A stretch of 64,000 bases of DNA from Weissella soli (GTDB lineage Bacteria > Bacillota > Bacilli > Lactobacillales > Lactobacillaceae): assembly GCF_001761545.1 (NCBI RefSeq), contig NZ_CP017326.1:1240001-1304000 (forward strand), in the 5' to 3' direction. The notes beneath the pieces are model-generated. The model saw nothing but the letters and a program-made list of their open reading frames with translations, had not been told where the DNA came from and searched no databases. Positions 3,360 to 60,552 of this stretch are shown piece after piece. The translations under genes and the position numbers were made by a program. Positions within the stretch are counted from its first letter, which is position 1. Each line of letters starts with the position of its first letter.

Positions 3360-3620
3360 TACAAAAAAACCTCTATGATCTAAAAAAATCATAGAGGACG
3401 TCATCAACGCGGTACCACCTCAATTTATAATTACCATCAACCCCGGTAATTAACTTAAGTAGCTATAAGGCACCACCCTGATATTTCGTTACCTTCAATA
3501 TCATCAATGCTCCAGACCATCTTCAGCAACACCCGTTTATGTGCTTACACCATTTGCACACTCTCTGGAAAACTTTGGTAACTTACTCATCCTTCAACAC
3601 ATTAAAAAACTATGAGATTT
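3360..3620 (-). promoter_or_regulatory. T-box leader, predicted methionine specifier
   Basis: The transcript strand carries the T-box core AGGTGGTACCGCG (3408-3420) followed by an intrinsic terminator: paired CCTCTATGAT/ATCATAGAGG arms with a T run at 3363-3397. Upstream, CCAGA (transcript, 3564-3568) pairs with TCTGG (3512-3516) to close the lower Stem I. The AGAGAG and GGTG elements are present, and AUG (3518-3520) sits in the specifier position just 5' of the closing stem. Uncharged tRNA binding would favour antitermination of the SAM hydrolase-ECF operon. The T-box call is firm; the Met specifier is inferred from manual folding. Confidence 0.88.
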
Positions 3621-23741: not shown

Positions 23742-23813
23742 TGCGGCTAGGGGGAATCGAACCCTCATCTCAAGAACCGGAATCTTACGTGATATCCATT
23801 ACACTATAGCCGC
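23742..23813 (-). tRNA. tRNA-Arg (anticodon CCG)
   Basis: A 72-base cloverleaf reads on the minus strand: acceptor GCGGCTA/TAGCCGC, D arm, anticodon loop TTCCGGT giving CCG, and T arm AGGGTTCGATTCCCCCT. The CCA end is not encoded. It reads CGG codons and has its own terminator. Confidence 0.95.
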
Positions 23814-35541: not shown

Positions 35542-36471
35542 CTAATTTGAATTCTCAGTAATTAACGAATTCAGATGACTATTAAACGTTTCCGTGGCAT
35601 CAAAGCCCATCTGCTTGGCCCGAAAATTTTTAGCCGCCGTTTCAATCAAAATAGCCAAATTACGACCCGTTTGCACCGGTAGCACCAATCGTGGTAAGTC
35701 AACGTCCAAAATTCGGATAGAATCCTCACCATTACCTAACCGATCGACCACTTGACCATCCTCCCATTTTGCTAGATGCAAATTAAAAGAAATGGTCGCA
35801 TGATTACGCACTGCACCGGCACCAAATAAGTTTAAGACGTCAATGATACCCACACCGCGTAATTCCATGAGATTCTTTAAAATTGCAGGAGCTTCCCCGA
35901 CCAGCCGTTCTTCATCTTGTTGATAAATATCAACGCGGTCATCTGCGATCAACCGGTGGCCCCGTTGGATGAGTTCAAGCGCAGTTTCTGACTTACCAAC
36001 ACCGGAATCACCAGTAATCAGGACGCCTAAGCCGAAGATATCAACCAAAACACCATGTACTGATTGCCGTTCTGCCAGTTGTCCTGATAGAAAGTAAGTC
36101 ATATTGGACAAAATTCGTGATGACGTGAGCTCAGTCGCCAAGACCGGTATCTGAGCTTCATTTGCCGCTTGCATGAACTCTTCTGGTAATTGACGTCCAG
36201 TCGACACCACAAAAACCGGCGTCTCAGCTGACATCATCTTACGGGCAACTAACAATTTCTCTTCATGGCTCATCCGTTGTGCAAAAGACGTTTCCGTTAT
36301 GCCCATGAGTTGCACACGTTCTGCAGCATAATAATTGAAATAGCCGGTCATTTCTAGCCCTGGACGGGAAATGTTTTCCGTCGTGATGGGACGATCCAAA
36401 TATTCGCCACCCGTCACCACCGTCAAACGCGTATTGTCTAATAAATCTTTTACTGTAATTTTTTTTGCCAT
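35542..36471 (-). CDS. hprK: HPr kinase/phosphorylase
   Basis: The protein is 309 residues with the P-loop GDSGVGKS at 154-161, His139 in SVHG, and the C-terminal signature ELRGVGIIDVLNLFG. It phosphorylates HPr at the regulatory Ser in glucose and removes it otherwise. Start 36471 (MAKKITV) follows GTGAGAAA, just after the YvlD-like gene's stop. HPr itself is encoded 5 kb away at 30609-30875. Confidence 0.97.
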   Translation of the reverse strand: MAKKITVKDLLDNTRLTVVTGGEYLDRPITTENISRPGLEMTGYFNYYAAERVQLMGITETSFAQRMSHEEKLLVARKMMSAETPVFVVSTGRQLPEEFMQAANEAQIPVLATELTSSRILSNMTYFLSGQLAERQSVHGVLVDIFGLGVLITGDSGVGKSETALELIQRGHRLIADDRVDIYQQDEERLVGEAPAILKNLMELRGVGIIDVLNLFGAGAVRNHATISFNLHLAKWEDGQVVDRLGNGEDSIRILDVDLPRLVLPVQTGRNLAILIETAAKNFRAKQMGFDATETFNSHLNSLITENSN

Positions 36472-36479
36472 AGTATTTC

Positions 36480-36848
36480 TCACTTGTTGTTTCGAACTAG
36501 ATAACTTGACAGGATTGCGTTAATCACCGACATAATCACCGAAATTAGCAAGGCCCACCCAAAACTTGCGAATTGGAATCCAGCACCCACGATCCAACTT
36601 GTCAGCCACAAAATTACCGCGTTAATCACAAAACCAAATAGGCCAAAGGTTAACAAAGTTAATGGTAAGCTAATTAATTGTAGAAATGGACGCAAGATGC
36701 CATTTAAGATACCCAGTACCAAGGCTGCTAAGATCCCTGTCGTAAAGTTTTCGATATAAAGACCGTTCTTAAAAAATCCTGCCAACGCCAATAACATAAT
36801 TACATTAATTAGTAATCGTTGGAGGAATGAAAATCGATTAAACATCAT
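36480..36848 (-). CDS. YvlD-like membrane protein (phage holin superfamily IV-type)
   Basis: The protein is 122 residues with four hydrophobic helices (around 8-25, 30-46, 55-80, 90-115) and the pattern GILNGILRPFLQLISLPLTLLTFGLFGFVINAVILWLTSWI. Bacillus YvlD and related proteins are cell-envelope stress-linked membrane proteins whose function is not settled. Its stop abuts hprK. An extended -10 (TGGTATAAT) lies upstream at about 36893-36901. Confidence 0.82.
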   Translation of the reverse strand: MMFNRFSFLQRLLINVIMLLALAGFFKNGLYIENFTTGILAALVLGILNGILRPFLQLISLPLTLLTFGLFGFVINAVILWLTSWIVGAGFQFASFGWALLISVIMSVINAILSSYLVRNNK

Positions 36849-36988
36849 ATAATTCCCCAGCTTTCCTTATAATTATTACCATACACAATTCCATTATACC
36901 AGTAATGAAAGCGTTTTTTTAATCAAAGTGTGTAATTTTACAGATTCCCTAAGCTCGGGACAACTCGGCTGGATTTAGTTAGTGCAAT

Positions 36989-37230
36989 AAAAAAACGTCA
37001 AGGACAAGTCCTTGACGTTTAGTTTGGCAATGCTATTGTAATGACCGGCAATAGCTCCGGTGATAGATTACTCTACCAGTCAACGTACACCAATTCCGAA
37101 AAATTGCAGTCATGTGCAGAGGGGGAGTTCCACAACGTCCGTCCTCACCTACCACTAATACGCGTGTTGAGATTTAACTCAGTAGGCCGTATATAAAGAT
37201 CGAAACATGATCTTCTCGACTCATCGCATA
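36989..37230 (-). ncRNA. Candidate structured non-coding RNA, about 240 nt, unidentified
   Basis: A complete transcription unit without an open frame lies here: a sigma-A promoter upstream and a strong terminator at 36989-37020 (13-bp perfect stem AAACGTCAAGGAC-type, then seven T). Folding by eye gives several hairpins (AAGATC/GATCTT, CCTAC/GTAGG, CAATT/AATTG) and near the 3' end an H-type pseudoknot: ACCGG/CCGGT (5 bp; 37044-37048 with 37057-37061) plus GCTATTG/CAATAGC (7 bp; 37032-37038 with 37049-37055). The ends GGTTATGC and GCATTGCC can pair. It does not carry tmRNA, RNase P, SRP or 5S signatures that I recognise. A Lacto-usp/6S relation is possible, since a usp gene is adjacent on the other strand. 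Confidence 0.6.
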
Positions 37231-37236
37231 ACCATA

Positions 37237-37265
37237 ATTATACAGAATTCTATTCGGTTTTTCAA
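37237..37265 (-). promoter_or_regulatory. Promoter of the candidate ncRNA
   Basis: Minus-strand TTGAAA (37260-37265) and TATAAT (37237-37242) have a 17-base spacer, one mismatch from consensus overall in the -35. Confidence 0.8.
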
Positions 37266-37536
37266 GTGTTAAATGCCGTGATGGCCGATTTCTAACCGTT
37301 TTCTCACCGTTCCAGCCACGTTAGCAGACCTAGATTGATGCCTTATTTGGTGAGGTTTTTAGGACCAGGAGCAGCAGCCAGACTTGTATCTCTTAAACAT
37401 TTGATCTTGGGATTACTGAAAATTGAAAACCCTTTCATATCATTCTGATAAAAGATATAATGTAAGTACAAATAACTGGTATGGCATCGTACCACTTTTA
37501 GAACGATGCTAACCTTTTAAAAATCGGGGGAATCTT
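37266..37536 (+). other. usp upstream region: promoter and leader hairpin
   Basis: No annotated gene. A plausible plus-strand promoter is TTTCAT then 17 bases then TATAAT (-10 at about 37457-37462). The leader has a hairpin GCATCGT/ACGATGC (about 37485-37510) before GGGGGAATCTT and the usp ATG. The segment 37262-37410 can also fold with GTTAAATG paired to CATTTGAT and CTCACC paired to GGTGAG, which is a loose long-hairpin pattern. Short frames of 31-36 codons occur on both strands but lack ribosome sites. Confidence 0.45.
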
Positions 37537-37986
37537 ATGGCTAACGAATTAGAGTACAAGAATATTTTAGCACCTGTTGACGGTTCTGCCGTCTCTGAAC
37601 ATGTGGCGTTAAAGGCTGCCGCAGTGGCCCATCGCAACGATACGCGGCTGGACTTACTATATGTCATTGACACCAACGCTTTGTCAGGCGTGGCTGGCAT
37701 GTCCATTACTGGAGATGTTGTCTACCATTTGGTCCAAGACTCCGAAGACAAGCTCAACAAATTAAAAGAACAGGTTCTAGCAGCATTCCCAGGGTTGGAA
37801 GTCGACATCCACATGCGTTTTGGCTCACCAAAGAAAGTGATTGTATCCGAATTTCCAAATGACCACGATACTGGTTTAATCTTGATTGGTAAATCAGGAC
37901 TGAATGCCCTGGAACGTTTGATTGTGGGTTCAGTGACAACGTTCGTCGTGCAAAATGCTAAAACTGACGTATTGATCGTCCAATAA
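37537..37986 (+). CDS. Universal stress protein (UspA family)
   Basis: The protein is 149 residues with an N-terminal ILAPVDGSAVSEHVALKAA and the ATP-binding C-terminal pattern GKSGLNALERLIVGSVTTFVVQNAKTDVLIV. Such proteins accumulate under starvation and acid or oxidative stress and bind ATP. GGGGG precedes the ATG. It is on the plus strand, divergent from the candidate ncRNA and followed by another plus-strand gene with its own promoter. Confidence 0.93.
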   Translation: MANELEYKNILAPVDGSAVSEHVALKAAAVAHRNDTRLDLLYVIDTNALSGVAGMSITGDVVYHLVQDSEDKLNKLKEQVLAAFPGLEVDIHMRFGSPKKVIVSEFPNDHDTGLILIGKSGLNALERLIVGSVTTFVVQNAKTDVLIVQ

Positions 37987-37993
37987 TTATAGT

Positions 37994-38039
37994 TTGATTA
38001 GAATGAAATAAGTATTATAATAGAGCTTAATACTTATTT
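37994..38039 (+). promoter_or_regulatory. Promoter with flanking 11-bp inverted repeat
   Basis: TTGATT (37994-37999) and TATAAT (38016-38021) are 16 bases apart. AAATAAGTATT (38006-38016) and AATACTTATTT (38029-38039) are perfect inverted copies with a 12-base gap and straddle the -10 and start region, an arrangement expected of a repressor operator. Confidence 0.7.
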
Positions 38040-38052
38040 AGAGGGGCTACTT

Positions 38053-38424
38053 ATGAAAATTATTGGTAACAACCTTGAAACAATTCACAAGTTCCGACAC
38101 GAGAACATCAGTGAACGCTTCTTACAGGATCCAATGTTGTCAGTTATGGCTGGCTTAACAACGGCAAACAATCCTCATCGTTTAGTGCTATTATACCTAG
38201 ATTCAAATAAAACCTTCTATCTAGTCGATAATACTTCTTCACTAGCCCATTCATTGACCTATATCGATGGTGCCATTGCTGTTCGCGAATGGAGTCCTGC
38301 AGATTTAATGGCGCTTATTCGTGGCTATCCAGGTGGTGGTTTTGATAACTACTTCCAAATTTTGGTTAATAATACGGCCGAGGCCCATGAAGCCGTGGCA
38401 ACGCAAGAAACCCCTATTCAATAA
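38053..38424 (+). CDS. Hypothetical protein, 123 aa
   Basis: I do not recognise this protein. It is soluble, mixed alpha/beta, with HRLVLLYLDSNKTFYLVDNTSSLAHSLTYIDGAIAVREWSPADLMALIRGYPGGG in the centre and a flexible C-terminus. GAGGGGCTACTT precedes the ATG. It follows usp but uses a separate, apparently regulated promoter. A role in stress adaptation is suggested only by this neighbour. Confidence 0.75.
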   Translation: MKIIGNNLETIHKFRHENISERFLQDPMLSVMAGLTTANNPHRLVLLYLDSNKTFYLVDNTSSLAHSLTYIDGAIAVREWSPADLMALIRGYPGGGFDNYFQILVNNTAEAHEAVATQETPIQ

Positions 38425-38428
38425 GCAC

Positions 38429-38463
38429 AACGCCCCCCAAGCTCTGTGGTTTGGAGGGCGTTT
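38429..38463 (+). terminator. Probable terminator after the 123-aa gene
   Basis: AACGCCC-CCA pairs with TGG-GGGCGTT with one mismatch; the T tract is short. Confidence 0.55.
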
Positions 38464-38501
38464 GCTATTTTCCAAGCCAGGTTATCCTTAAATACCAACG
38501 C

Positions 38502-38539
38502 AAAAAAGCACCTAAGTATAAATACTTAAGTGCTTTTTT
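38502..38539. terminator. Terminator after fusA, possibly bidirectional
   Basis: AAAAAAGCAC-TAAGTA/TACTTA-GTGCTTTTTT with a 4-base loop: near-perfect stem with A and T tracts on both sides. Confidence 0.88.
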
Positions 38540-38557
38540 CGGTAATTCTAAATAGAA

Positions 38558-40675
38558 TTAACCTTCTTGCTTACCATACTTGGCGATAATTTGTTCTTGA
38601 ACATTCTTAGGAACAGCTTCGTAATGGTCAAAGGCCATTTGGAAAGTTCCACGTCCTTGAGTAGCAGAACGCAAAGTAGTAGCATAGCCGAACATTTCAG
38701 CCAAAGGAACCTTACCATGGACCATGATTGAGTTTCCACGTTGCTCTTGACCTTCGATCATACCACGACGAGATGAGATATGTCCCATAACATCACCAAG
38801 GTTGTCTTCAGGTGCAACAATGTCAACCTTCATCACTGGTTCAAGGATAACGGCACCGGCAGTCTTAGAAGCTTCACGCAAAGCCAATGAGGCAGCGATC
38901 TTAAAGGCAGCTTCTGATGAGTCGACATCGTGATAAGATCCATCGTACAACTTGGCCTTCAAGTCAACCAATGGGAATCCTGCCAAAGGACCGTTGTTCA
39001 ATGAGTCACGCAATCCAGCTTCAACTGAAGGAATGTATTCACGAGGAACCACACCACCGACGATGGCATCTTCGAATTCGAATCCGGCACCCTCTTCATT
39101 AGGTGTGAATTCGATCCAAACATCACCATATTGTCCCTTACCACCTGATTGACGCTTAAAGTATCCACGTGCCTTAACAGATTGAGTAAAGGCTTCACGG
39201 TAGGCAACTTGAGGTGCCCCAACGTTAGCTTCAACATTAAATTCACGCTTCATACGGTCAACGATGATATCCAAGTGCAACTCACCCATTCCTGAGATCA
39301 AAGTATCACCAGTTTCAGGGTTAGTTTCGGCACGGAATGAAGGATCTTCTTCAGCCAACTTTTGCAAAGCATTTGACATCTTGTCTTGGTCAGCCTTTGT
39401 CTTAGGTTCGATAGCCAATTGGATAACTGGGTCAGGGAATTCCATAGACTCCAATACCAATGGGTGATCAACGTCAGTCAAAGAATCACCAGTGGTAGTA
39501 TCCTTCAAACCGATAGCGGCTGCGATATCACCAGAGAAAACTTCTTCGATTTCAGTACGGTTAGTTGCGTGCATTTGTAGCAAACGACCAACACGTTCAC
39601 GCTTGCCCTTTGAAGTGTTCAAAACGTATGAACCTGATTCCAAAGTACCAGTGTAAACACGCAAGAACGTCAAACGACCAACGAATGGATCAGTCATAAC
39701 CTTAAATGCCAAAGCCGCAAATGGCTTGTCATCATCGGCAATCAAGTCAACTTCTTCATCAGTATCAGGATCGTTAGCAATATATGGCTTAACGTCCAAA
39801 GGTGATGGCAAGTAGTCAACAACCGCGTCCAACATCATTTGAACACCCTTATCCTTGTAGGCTGAACCTGCAAGTACTGGGTAGAATTCCAATGACAAAA
39901 CGGCACGACGAATGGCAGCCTTCAAGTCAGCTTCTGAGATTTCTTCTCCACCAAGGTACTTATCCATGATGTCATCATCAACATCAGCGATGGCTTCAAC
40001 TAATTCTGAATACTTTTCTTCAACCAAATCAACGTAATCTGCAGGAATATCATGCTTCTCCCACTTCTCACCTAATTCATCGACTGGGAATAAAGCTTCC
40101 TTAGAGATCAAGTCAATGATCCCTTCAAAGTCATCTTCGGCACCGATTGGCCATTGAATAGCCTTTGCGTTAGCACCCAAACGTGACTTAATTGAGTCAA
40201 CTGACATTTGGAAGTCAGCACCCATCTTGTCCATCTTGTTAACGAAAACAATACGTGGTACTTGATAAGTTTCAGCTTGACGCCAAACAGTTTCAGTTTG
40301 TGGTTCAACACCAGCAGCACCGTCAAGGACGGCAACAGCACCATCCAACACACGCAATGAACGTTCAACTTCGATTGTGAAGTCCACGTGTCCTGGGGTG
40401 TCAATGATGTTAACACGATATGGTTCCTTGGCGTATTGGTCGTGGAAACCATGCCAAACTGCAGTCGTAGCAGCAGATTGGATTGTGATTCCACGTTCCT
40501 TTTCTTGATCCATAAAGTCCATTTGTGAAGCTCCATCGTGAGTCTCACCAATTTTGTGGATTTTACCAGTATAGTACAAGATACGTTCAGTCGTAGTTGT
40601 CTTACCGGCGTCGATGTGGGCCATAATACCGATATTTCGAGTACGGTTCAATGGGTATTCACGCTTGTTAGCCAT
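38558..40675 (-). CDS. fusA: Elongation factor G
   Basis: The protein is 705 residues with GTPase motifs [17 protein letters not shown] and NKMDKMGAD, and five EF-G domains ending in [26 protein letters not shown]. It drives ribosomal translocation. AGGAG precedes the start at a distance of 11. It lies after rpsL-rpsG but is separated from rpsG by a terminator and has a TATAAT box upstream, so it is a separate unit. Confidence 0.98.
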
Positions 40676-60358: not shown

Positions 60359-60432
60359 TTGCGGGAGTAGGATTTGAACCTACGACCTTCGGGTTATGGG
60401 CCCGACGAGCTACCAGACTGCTCCATCCCGCG
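60359..60432 (-). tRNA. Initiator tRNA-fMet (anticodon CAT)
   Basis: A 74-base cloverleaf on the minus strand with the initiator features: C1 opposite A72 (unpaired top of the acceptor), three G-C pairs (GGG/CCC) in the anticodon stem, and anticodon CAT. The loop reads CCCATAA, so position 33 is C instead of the near-universal U. No CCA is encoded. It shares a transcript with tRNA-Ser. Confidence 0.93.
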
Positions 60433-60462: not shown

Positions 60463-60552
60463 AGGAGATGGTGGGATTCGAACCCACGCGCCGGTTTCCC
60501 GACCTGACGGTTTTCAAGACCGTTCCCTTCAGCCAGACTTGGGTACATCTCC
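60463..60552 (-). tRNA. tRNA-Ser (anticodon TGA)
   Basis: A 90-base class II tRNA with long variable arm. Acceptor GGAGATG/CATCTCC, anticodon loop CTTGAAA giving TGA, reads UCN codons. The base following the acceptor (discriminator) reads T, where G is usual for tRNA-Ser. No CCA is encoded. Confidence 0.93.

Follow-up and report, generated by a model that had tools for sequence, protein, structure and literature searches.

Two groups of small RNAs provide the background for this locus: MarS, known from work on streptococci, and Ref68, which Rfam lists as enterococcal. According to the published accounts, the Streptococcus pyogenes RNA termed SSRC21, MarS, or asd RNA is expressed and has had its ends mapped by Northern blotting and circular RACE, deletion of the S. 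pyogenes ortholog changed 142 transcripts and raised ntp genes 4.2-7.4 fold, and reduced mga was reported in the work on MarS, as was a gel shift of MarS with the mga 5' UTR that is lost upon changing CC 88-89 (PMC5613026). Published work likewise describes the asd RNA of S. agalactiae as visible on Northern blots and dropping in late stationary phase, and identifies the asd RNA of S. pneumoniae as srf-17 (further sources: PMC10117718, PMC2864571, PMC6431027, PMC6212727, PMC4448216). In the literature searched, no paper was found that names Ref68, Lacto-3, or RF02840; RF01732 is named in one paper and the asd RNA motif in two.

Here, an RNA gene of Weissella soli is compared with these systems. 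It occupies the minus strand at 36989-37265 of the window (the whole stretch of 64,000 nucleotides that was analysed), where a promoter is followed by ~240 nt and then by a 12-bp intrinsic terminator. The window RNA is a diverged Weissella version of a known RNA, with an extra pseudoknot tail. The best explanation, and one that we hold to be reasonably probable, is that it is a free-standing, trans-acting sRNA orthologous to the order-wide Ref68/Lacto-3 and asd/MarS RNA. The features of the locus, from the promoter to the terminator, are as follows.

37237 to 37265, minus strand: sigma-A type promoter, with -35 box TTGAAA at 37265-37260, a 17-nt spacer and -10 box TATAAT at 37242-37237.
36989 to 37228, minus strand: structured RNA of ~240 nt, fold z-score -3.2.
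37125 to 37228, minus strand: match to RF02840 (Ref68, Lacto-3 RNA), 39.1 bits, E 8.9e-7, gathering score 44.
37216 to 37228, minus strand: nearly invariant 5' tail UGCGAUGAGUCGA, present in 47 genera and complementary to 23S rRNA.
37195 to 37215, minus strand: hairpin P1, from the fold.
37147 to 37187, minus strand: branched stem P2, 8/10 pairs changed on both sides.
37119 to 37146, minus strand: hairpin P3, with invariant UUGUGGAA at 37135-37128, 7/10 pairs changed on both sides.
37086 to 37118, minus strand: stem P4, 1/5 pairs changed on both sides.
37079 to 37083, minus strand: UUGAC, possible partner of G9-A13 in the 5' tail, 99.1% of cells paired and no double change.
37061 to 37078, minus strand: hairpin P5, 5/6 pairs changed on both sides and every cell paired.
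37032 to 37060, minus strand: H-type pseudoknot with covariation, whose conserved stems have 4 + 6 bp and could extend to 5 + 7 bp in this sequence.
37023 to 37028, minus strand: GCCAAA, of which GCCAA is invariant in Weissella and also present in Periweissella and genera g16 and g8.
36987 to 37020, minus strand: intrinsic terminator, a 12-bp stem (37020-36993) and T run, 8/11 aligned pairs changed on both sides.

A scan of the window with Rfam at gathering thresholds matched no family at the RNA locus, and the RF02840 match falls short of that family's cut-off of 44 bits. Above the cut-off are three of the four same-genus survey genomes (G024, 56.3 bits; G178, 50.2 bits; G259, 46.4 bits) together with W. 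minor (63.9 bits), and the fourth, G032, lies just below it at 43.9 bits. In the order, RF02840 was matched at E<=1 by 185 of the 295 genomes surveyed, with 74 above cut-off. A survey of the class, covering 299 genomes, gave 18 matches at E<=0.01, comprising 17 from Lactobacillales and a single borderline match outside the order (E 0.0099) that is counted as unproven. None of the 13 listed genomes of genus g2, which is of the same family, was matched in the order survey; the RNA is seemingly absent or unrecognisable in families f8 and f9 as well as in this genus. When the window RNA is aligned to RF02840, the first model letters match 17/17 at its transcription start and four pairs are non-standard, two in the last hairpin and two in the middle one. 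The consensus hairpins are kept, and P2 and P3 covary in Weissella. The Rfam comparison that the first-pass annotation had suggested thus yields a match, albeit one below gathering score, and the novelty implied there is not supported, since the RNA belongs to Ref68/Lacto-3 and, more broadly, to the group that includes MarS/asd (RF01732).

The Rfam clan column is empty for both RF01732 and RF02840. It is nevertheless concluded, on overlap and shared sequence, that the two would constitute one RNA group, because they fall at the same place in most non-streptococcal genomes that have RF01732 at E<=1e-3 and because a third model bridges them. RF01732 at E<=1 was found in 73 of 290 genomes. Outside Streptococcus, 21 genomes carried RF01732 at E<=1e-3, and RF02840 was at the same place in 18 of these; of the remaining three, G214 and G181 have no listed RF02840 match and for G044 the place is not listed. 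In the window's genome, RF01732 gave no match at E<=1 (family cut-off 84 bits). At one Streptococcus locus (L147), RF01732 scored 113.8 bits and RF02840 scored 27.6 bits from the same start, and the SSRC21 primers matched exactly in four of five cases, the fifth with 3 mismatches. A published deletion primer for SSRC21 of S. pyogenes carries the complement of the conserved 5' end (PMC3675131). The bridging model, R2, represents the order-wide core and was built without Weissella and Streptococcus. It is a sequence-only model because RNAalifold found no pair on its MAFFT alignment (A2), the sequences of which were chosen for a UGUGGA/UGUGAA/UGUGUGA motif, such that invariance of the motif in A2 is by selection; one locus (L080) was excluded because of an unexpected start position. 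Searches with R2 recovered the window RNA (E 1.8e-4), L147 (E 1.3e-3), and 8/8 Weissella loci, along with 5/12 Streptococcus loci, the other seven being missed at E<=1.

As consensus matches alone, the promoter and terminator are not beyond chance. The promoter agrees with the consensus at 11/12 letters and the terminator stem is the sole terminator-like site within 36000-38600; a consensus scan returned 11 promoter-like sites versus 6.2 in shuffles and one terminator versus 2.3. Both elements are considered real because they are conserved across homologous loci. Among 114 such loci gathered by structure search, a -10 box lies 4-9 nt upstream of the conserved 5' end in 111, compared to 370 of 2280 random positions. 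The RNA starts at 37228 or one base upstream, the preceding A being suggested by MarS numbering. A DNA search recovered the RNA gene in 25/25 same-genus genomes (the window's included) and, at the same sensitivity, in 0/16 other genomes. A leaderless small protein starting from the AUG at +5 was considered and rejected: it would span 6-39 aa in 26 Weissella sequences, in a frame that is not conserved, and the AUG reads ACG in enterococcal-type relatives. A tRNA and tmRNA search of the unit found neither, and tmRNA, RNase P, SRP, and 5S were all without an Rfam match in the window, in keeping with their dismissal in the first-pass annotation. That annotation's description of an isolated structured RNA without a protein frame, with its own sigma-A promoter and terminator on the minus strand, is borne out by conservation, covariation, and the fold z-score, and transcription of a ~240-nt RNA in Weissella may be inferred. 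Elsewhere, the window holds a T-box leader (RF00230, 105.1 bits) at 3391-3606 on the minus strand and tRNA genes at 23742-23813, 60359-60432, and 60463-60552.

The structure was examined on an alignment (A1) of 23 of the 26 Weissella loci, from which L034 and L035 were left out as near-identical to L033, as was L039 due to its broken 3' end; a further alignment (A3) comprised 21 sequences. In L039 (1501-1677), either a rearrangement or a join in the assembly interrupts the RNA inside the pseudoknot, and the surrounding frames are broken. For the 23 sequences, RNAalifold predicted 56 pairs, 33 of them with compensatory change. In a 60-pair structure that includes the pseudoknot, 95.9% of cells are paired, falling to 31-43% when the structure is slid along the alignment, and there are 218 double changes versus 60.1 in shuffles. 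The H-type pseudoknot that had been proposed for the 3' part is confirmed: considered alone, it is paired in 230/230 cells (100%) across the 23 sequences, with 45 cells changed on both sides versus 12.2 in shuffles. The two ends of the RNA are also complementary in 23/23 sequences, and the end pairs are never changed on both sides. Hence, joining of the tail to the 3' half by pairs 2-4/220-222 and 9-13/164-168 is possible, not proven.

The 3' module has a narrow distribution. Model R1 was used to look for it in 80 other sources and in a further 31 loci, either named or MarS, and gave clear matches only in L025 of genus g16 in the same family (E 8.3e-7), L134 of Periweissella fabalis (4e-4), and L143 of W. 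minor. In genus g8, AUGACUAACA and GCAUGCCAAACU occupy the expected position, but the scores are weak. The pseudoknot module is therefore found only in Weissella, Periweissella, and genus g16, and weakly in genus g8. A holin-family (PF04020) gene and/or hprK is close by in 25/26 Weissella loci, the exception being L032, which could suggest that the RNA is a riboswitch-like 5' leader of a downstream holin-family/hprK operon. Such a role is very improbable, given that a strong terminator closes the RNA and that the examined loci of other genera have neither a holin-family gene nor hprK, their only shared neighbor being an isolated usp in L027, L126, and L127. Since neighbors differ between genera, the gene moves freely, fitting a trans-acting RNA. 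The usp neighbor noted in the first-pass annotation is not a family feature, as usp adjoins the RNA gene in only 12/26 Weissella loci. The annotation's term antisense describes the strand alone, the RNA being divergent from usp, which starts at 37537, and not overlapping it. Additionally, a 123-aa protein without a Pfam match is encoded at 38053-38424 on the plus strand and has a homolog near the RNA in 17/26 Weissella loci.

Proximity to usp is also what raises the question of 6S RNA. Lacto-usp (RF01710) and 6S (RF00013) RNAs likewise occur near usp, with a position and fold that differ from those of the window RNA. Lacto-usp was rejected as a candidate, having no match in the whole genome. 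That the RNA is an unusual 6S RNA of Weissella might be entertained because it adjoins usp and because canonical 6S was reportedly not found in most Weissella (PMC8414754), yet RF00013 is also without a match in the whole genome and the candidate published in that report sits downstream of rarA (PMC8414754). In the present genome, rarA is found at 318.7 kb, 0.96 Mb from the RNA, and has a promoter-terminator gap and a usp of its own. Moreover, S. pneumoniae carries both ssrS and asd RNA. A 6S identity is thus exceedingly improbable, and the first-pass annotation was right to set Lacto-usp aside. As a separate observation, the ~300-nt gap between rarA and a second usp (L150:2030-2330, corresponding to G000:C1 ~319.2-319.5 kb) contains TATAAT and a strong terminator and has no Rfam match; it is the place of the non-canonical 6S-like Weissella RNA described in PMC8414754.

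With homology, gene unit, structure, and covariation in hand as observations, a base-pairing function with a seed and targets in Weissella may be proposed by analogy. The window RNA is a single-copy gene. Its predicted fold has a compact core in which the conserved 5' tail is followed by P1, the branched P2, and P3, the last bearing the UUGUGGAA loop; in the Weissella lineage, a 3' module with the H-type pseudoknot stands ahead of the terminator. The exposed P3 loop, by inference from MarS, would act as the seed, annealing to the 5' untranslated regions of target mRNAs and thereby altering their translation or stability, and the 5' tail and pseudoknot would shield the ends or keep the loop exposed. 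A base-pairing sRNA with a P3 seed is proposed because of the contact of MarS with mga and because the P3 loop is conserved. It is invariant in 23/23 Weissella sequences, UGUGGA or UGUGAA is present at nt 40-190 in 43/47 genus representatives, and the loop is the counterpart of the mga-binding loop in MarS, where CC 88-89 falls within the UGUGAACC stretch of P3. Locus L147 has this CC at 87-88, inside UGUGUGAACC of P3. Use of the conserved UGUGGAA loop for trans base-pairing, as by MarS on mga, is most likely on this analogy, and the seed shared with MarS is presumed, mga being specific to the host of MarS. Alternatively, the invariant loop and tail, presented on a strong structure, might be kept for contacts with a protein such as KhpA/KhpB or another partner, with the RNA acting as a scaffold or sponge; in enterococci, KhpB has been put forward as a candidate for binding sRNAs. 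This is rather unlikely, since KhpB RIP-seq highlights other sRNAs and since MarS has a supported mRNA contact.

A further alternative concerns the 5' tail. In the whole genome, the complement of the tail is matched perfectly only by itself and with one mismatch only by the six 23S rRNA copies, with which each of the 13 nt forms a pair, one of these being G-U. The target presumably corresponds to 2506-2518 in E. coli numbering, in helix H90. The RNA might then act mainly via its tail on this strand by the peptidyl transferase center, engaging 50S that is unfolded or still maturing and serving in assembly or hibernation. Shuffled tails equalled the observed rRNA pairing in 1/4000 cases, the five tail positions that face C of 23S are unchanged in 47 genera, changes elsewhere in the tail mostly keep a pair, and the three genera with C6 for which 23S was found carry G at the partner site. 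However, shuffled whole RNAs reached the score in 24/300 cases, and hence it is not rare; 64/4000 shuffles were as good when the first 9 nt alone were considered; and about two one-mismatch occurrences of a 13-mer are expected in the genome. Further, several genera have nt 10-14 engaged in pairing at the base of P1, U10G (three genera), A13U, and U1C break the pairing, and C6 is confined to one family, such that its occurrences are not independent, with 23S not found in 2/5 C6 genera. Of 10 further genomes searched for the 23S segment, 8 yielded none or just a 2-mismatch site. Additionally, the target strand is paired inside H90 in the mature 50S. A primary action on 23S is accordingly judged improbable. 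The same holds for a bolder version, to which we give little credence, whereby MarS/Ref68 RNAs across the order would act on the ribosome first, via the 23S-antisense tail, and as mRNA regulators second, with the Weissella pseudoknot module and 3' UUGAC possibly masking the tail and thus making it a switch.

The preferred reading of a trans-acting, base-pairing sRNA bears on how the known systems are viewed. If MarS and Ref68 are one RNA group, it would belong to a small number of sRNAs retained in most of the order, harmless food bacteria included, and mga regulation could therefore not have been its original function. The Weissella form adds a pseudoknot proven by covariation, and its conserved tail and loop are candidate sites of action in non-pathogens. 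E. faecalis sRNA_112 and E. faecium sRNA_005, described in PMC7724050 as a conserved enterococcal sRNA with the first 50 nt highly conserved, resemble Ref68 by description alone and are only a lead. Ref68/Lacto-3 itself has the same 5' end, the same hairpins over 124 model positions, and a free-standing gene with terminator, whereas the window RNA has a reduced P1 and an extra ~110 nt, including the pseudoknot, beyond the Rfam model. Similarly, asd/MarS/SSRC21 of Streptococcus shares with the window RNA the 5' end, the P1-P2-P3 order, the UGUG loop in P3, and the terminator but, at ~150 nt, is without the pseudoknot module that the Weissella RNA carries.
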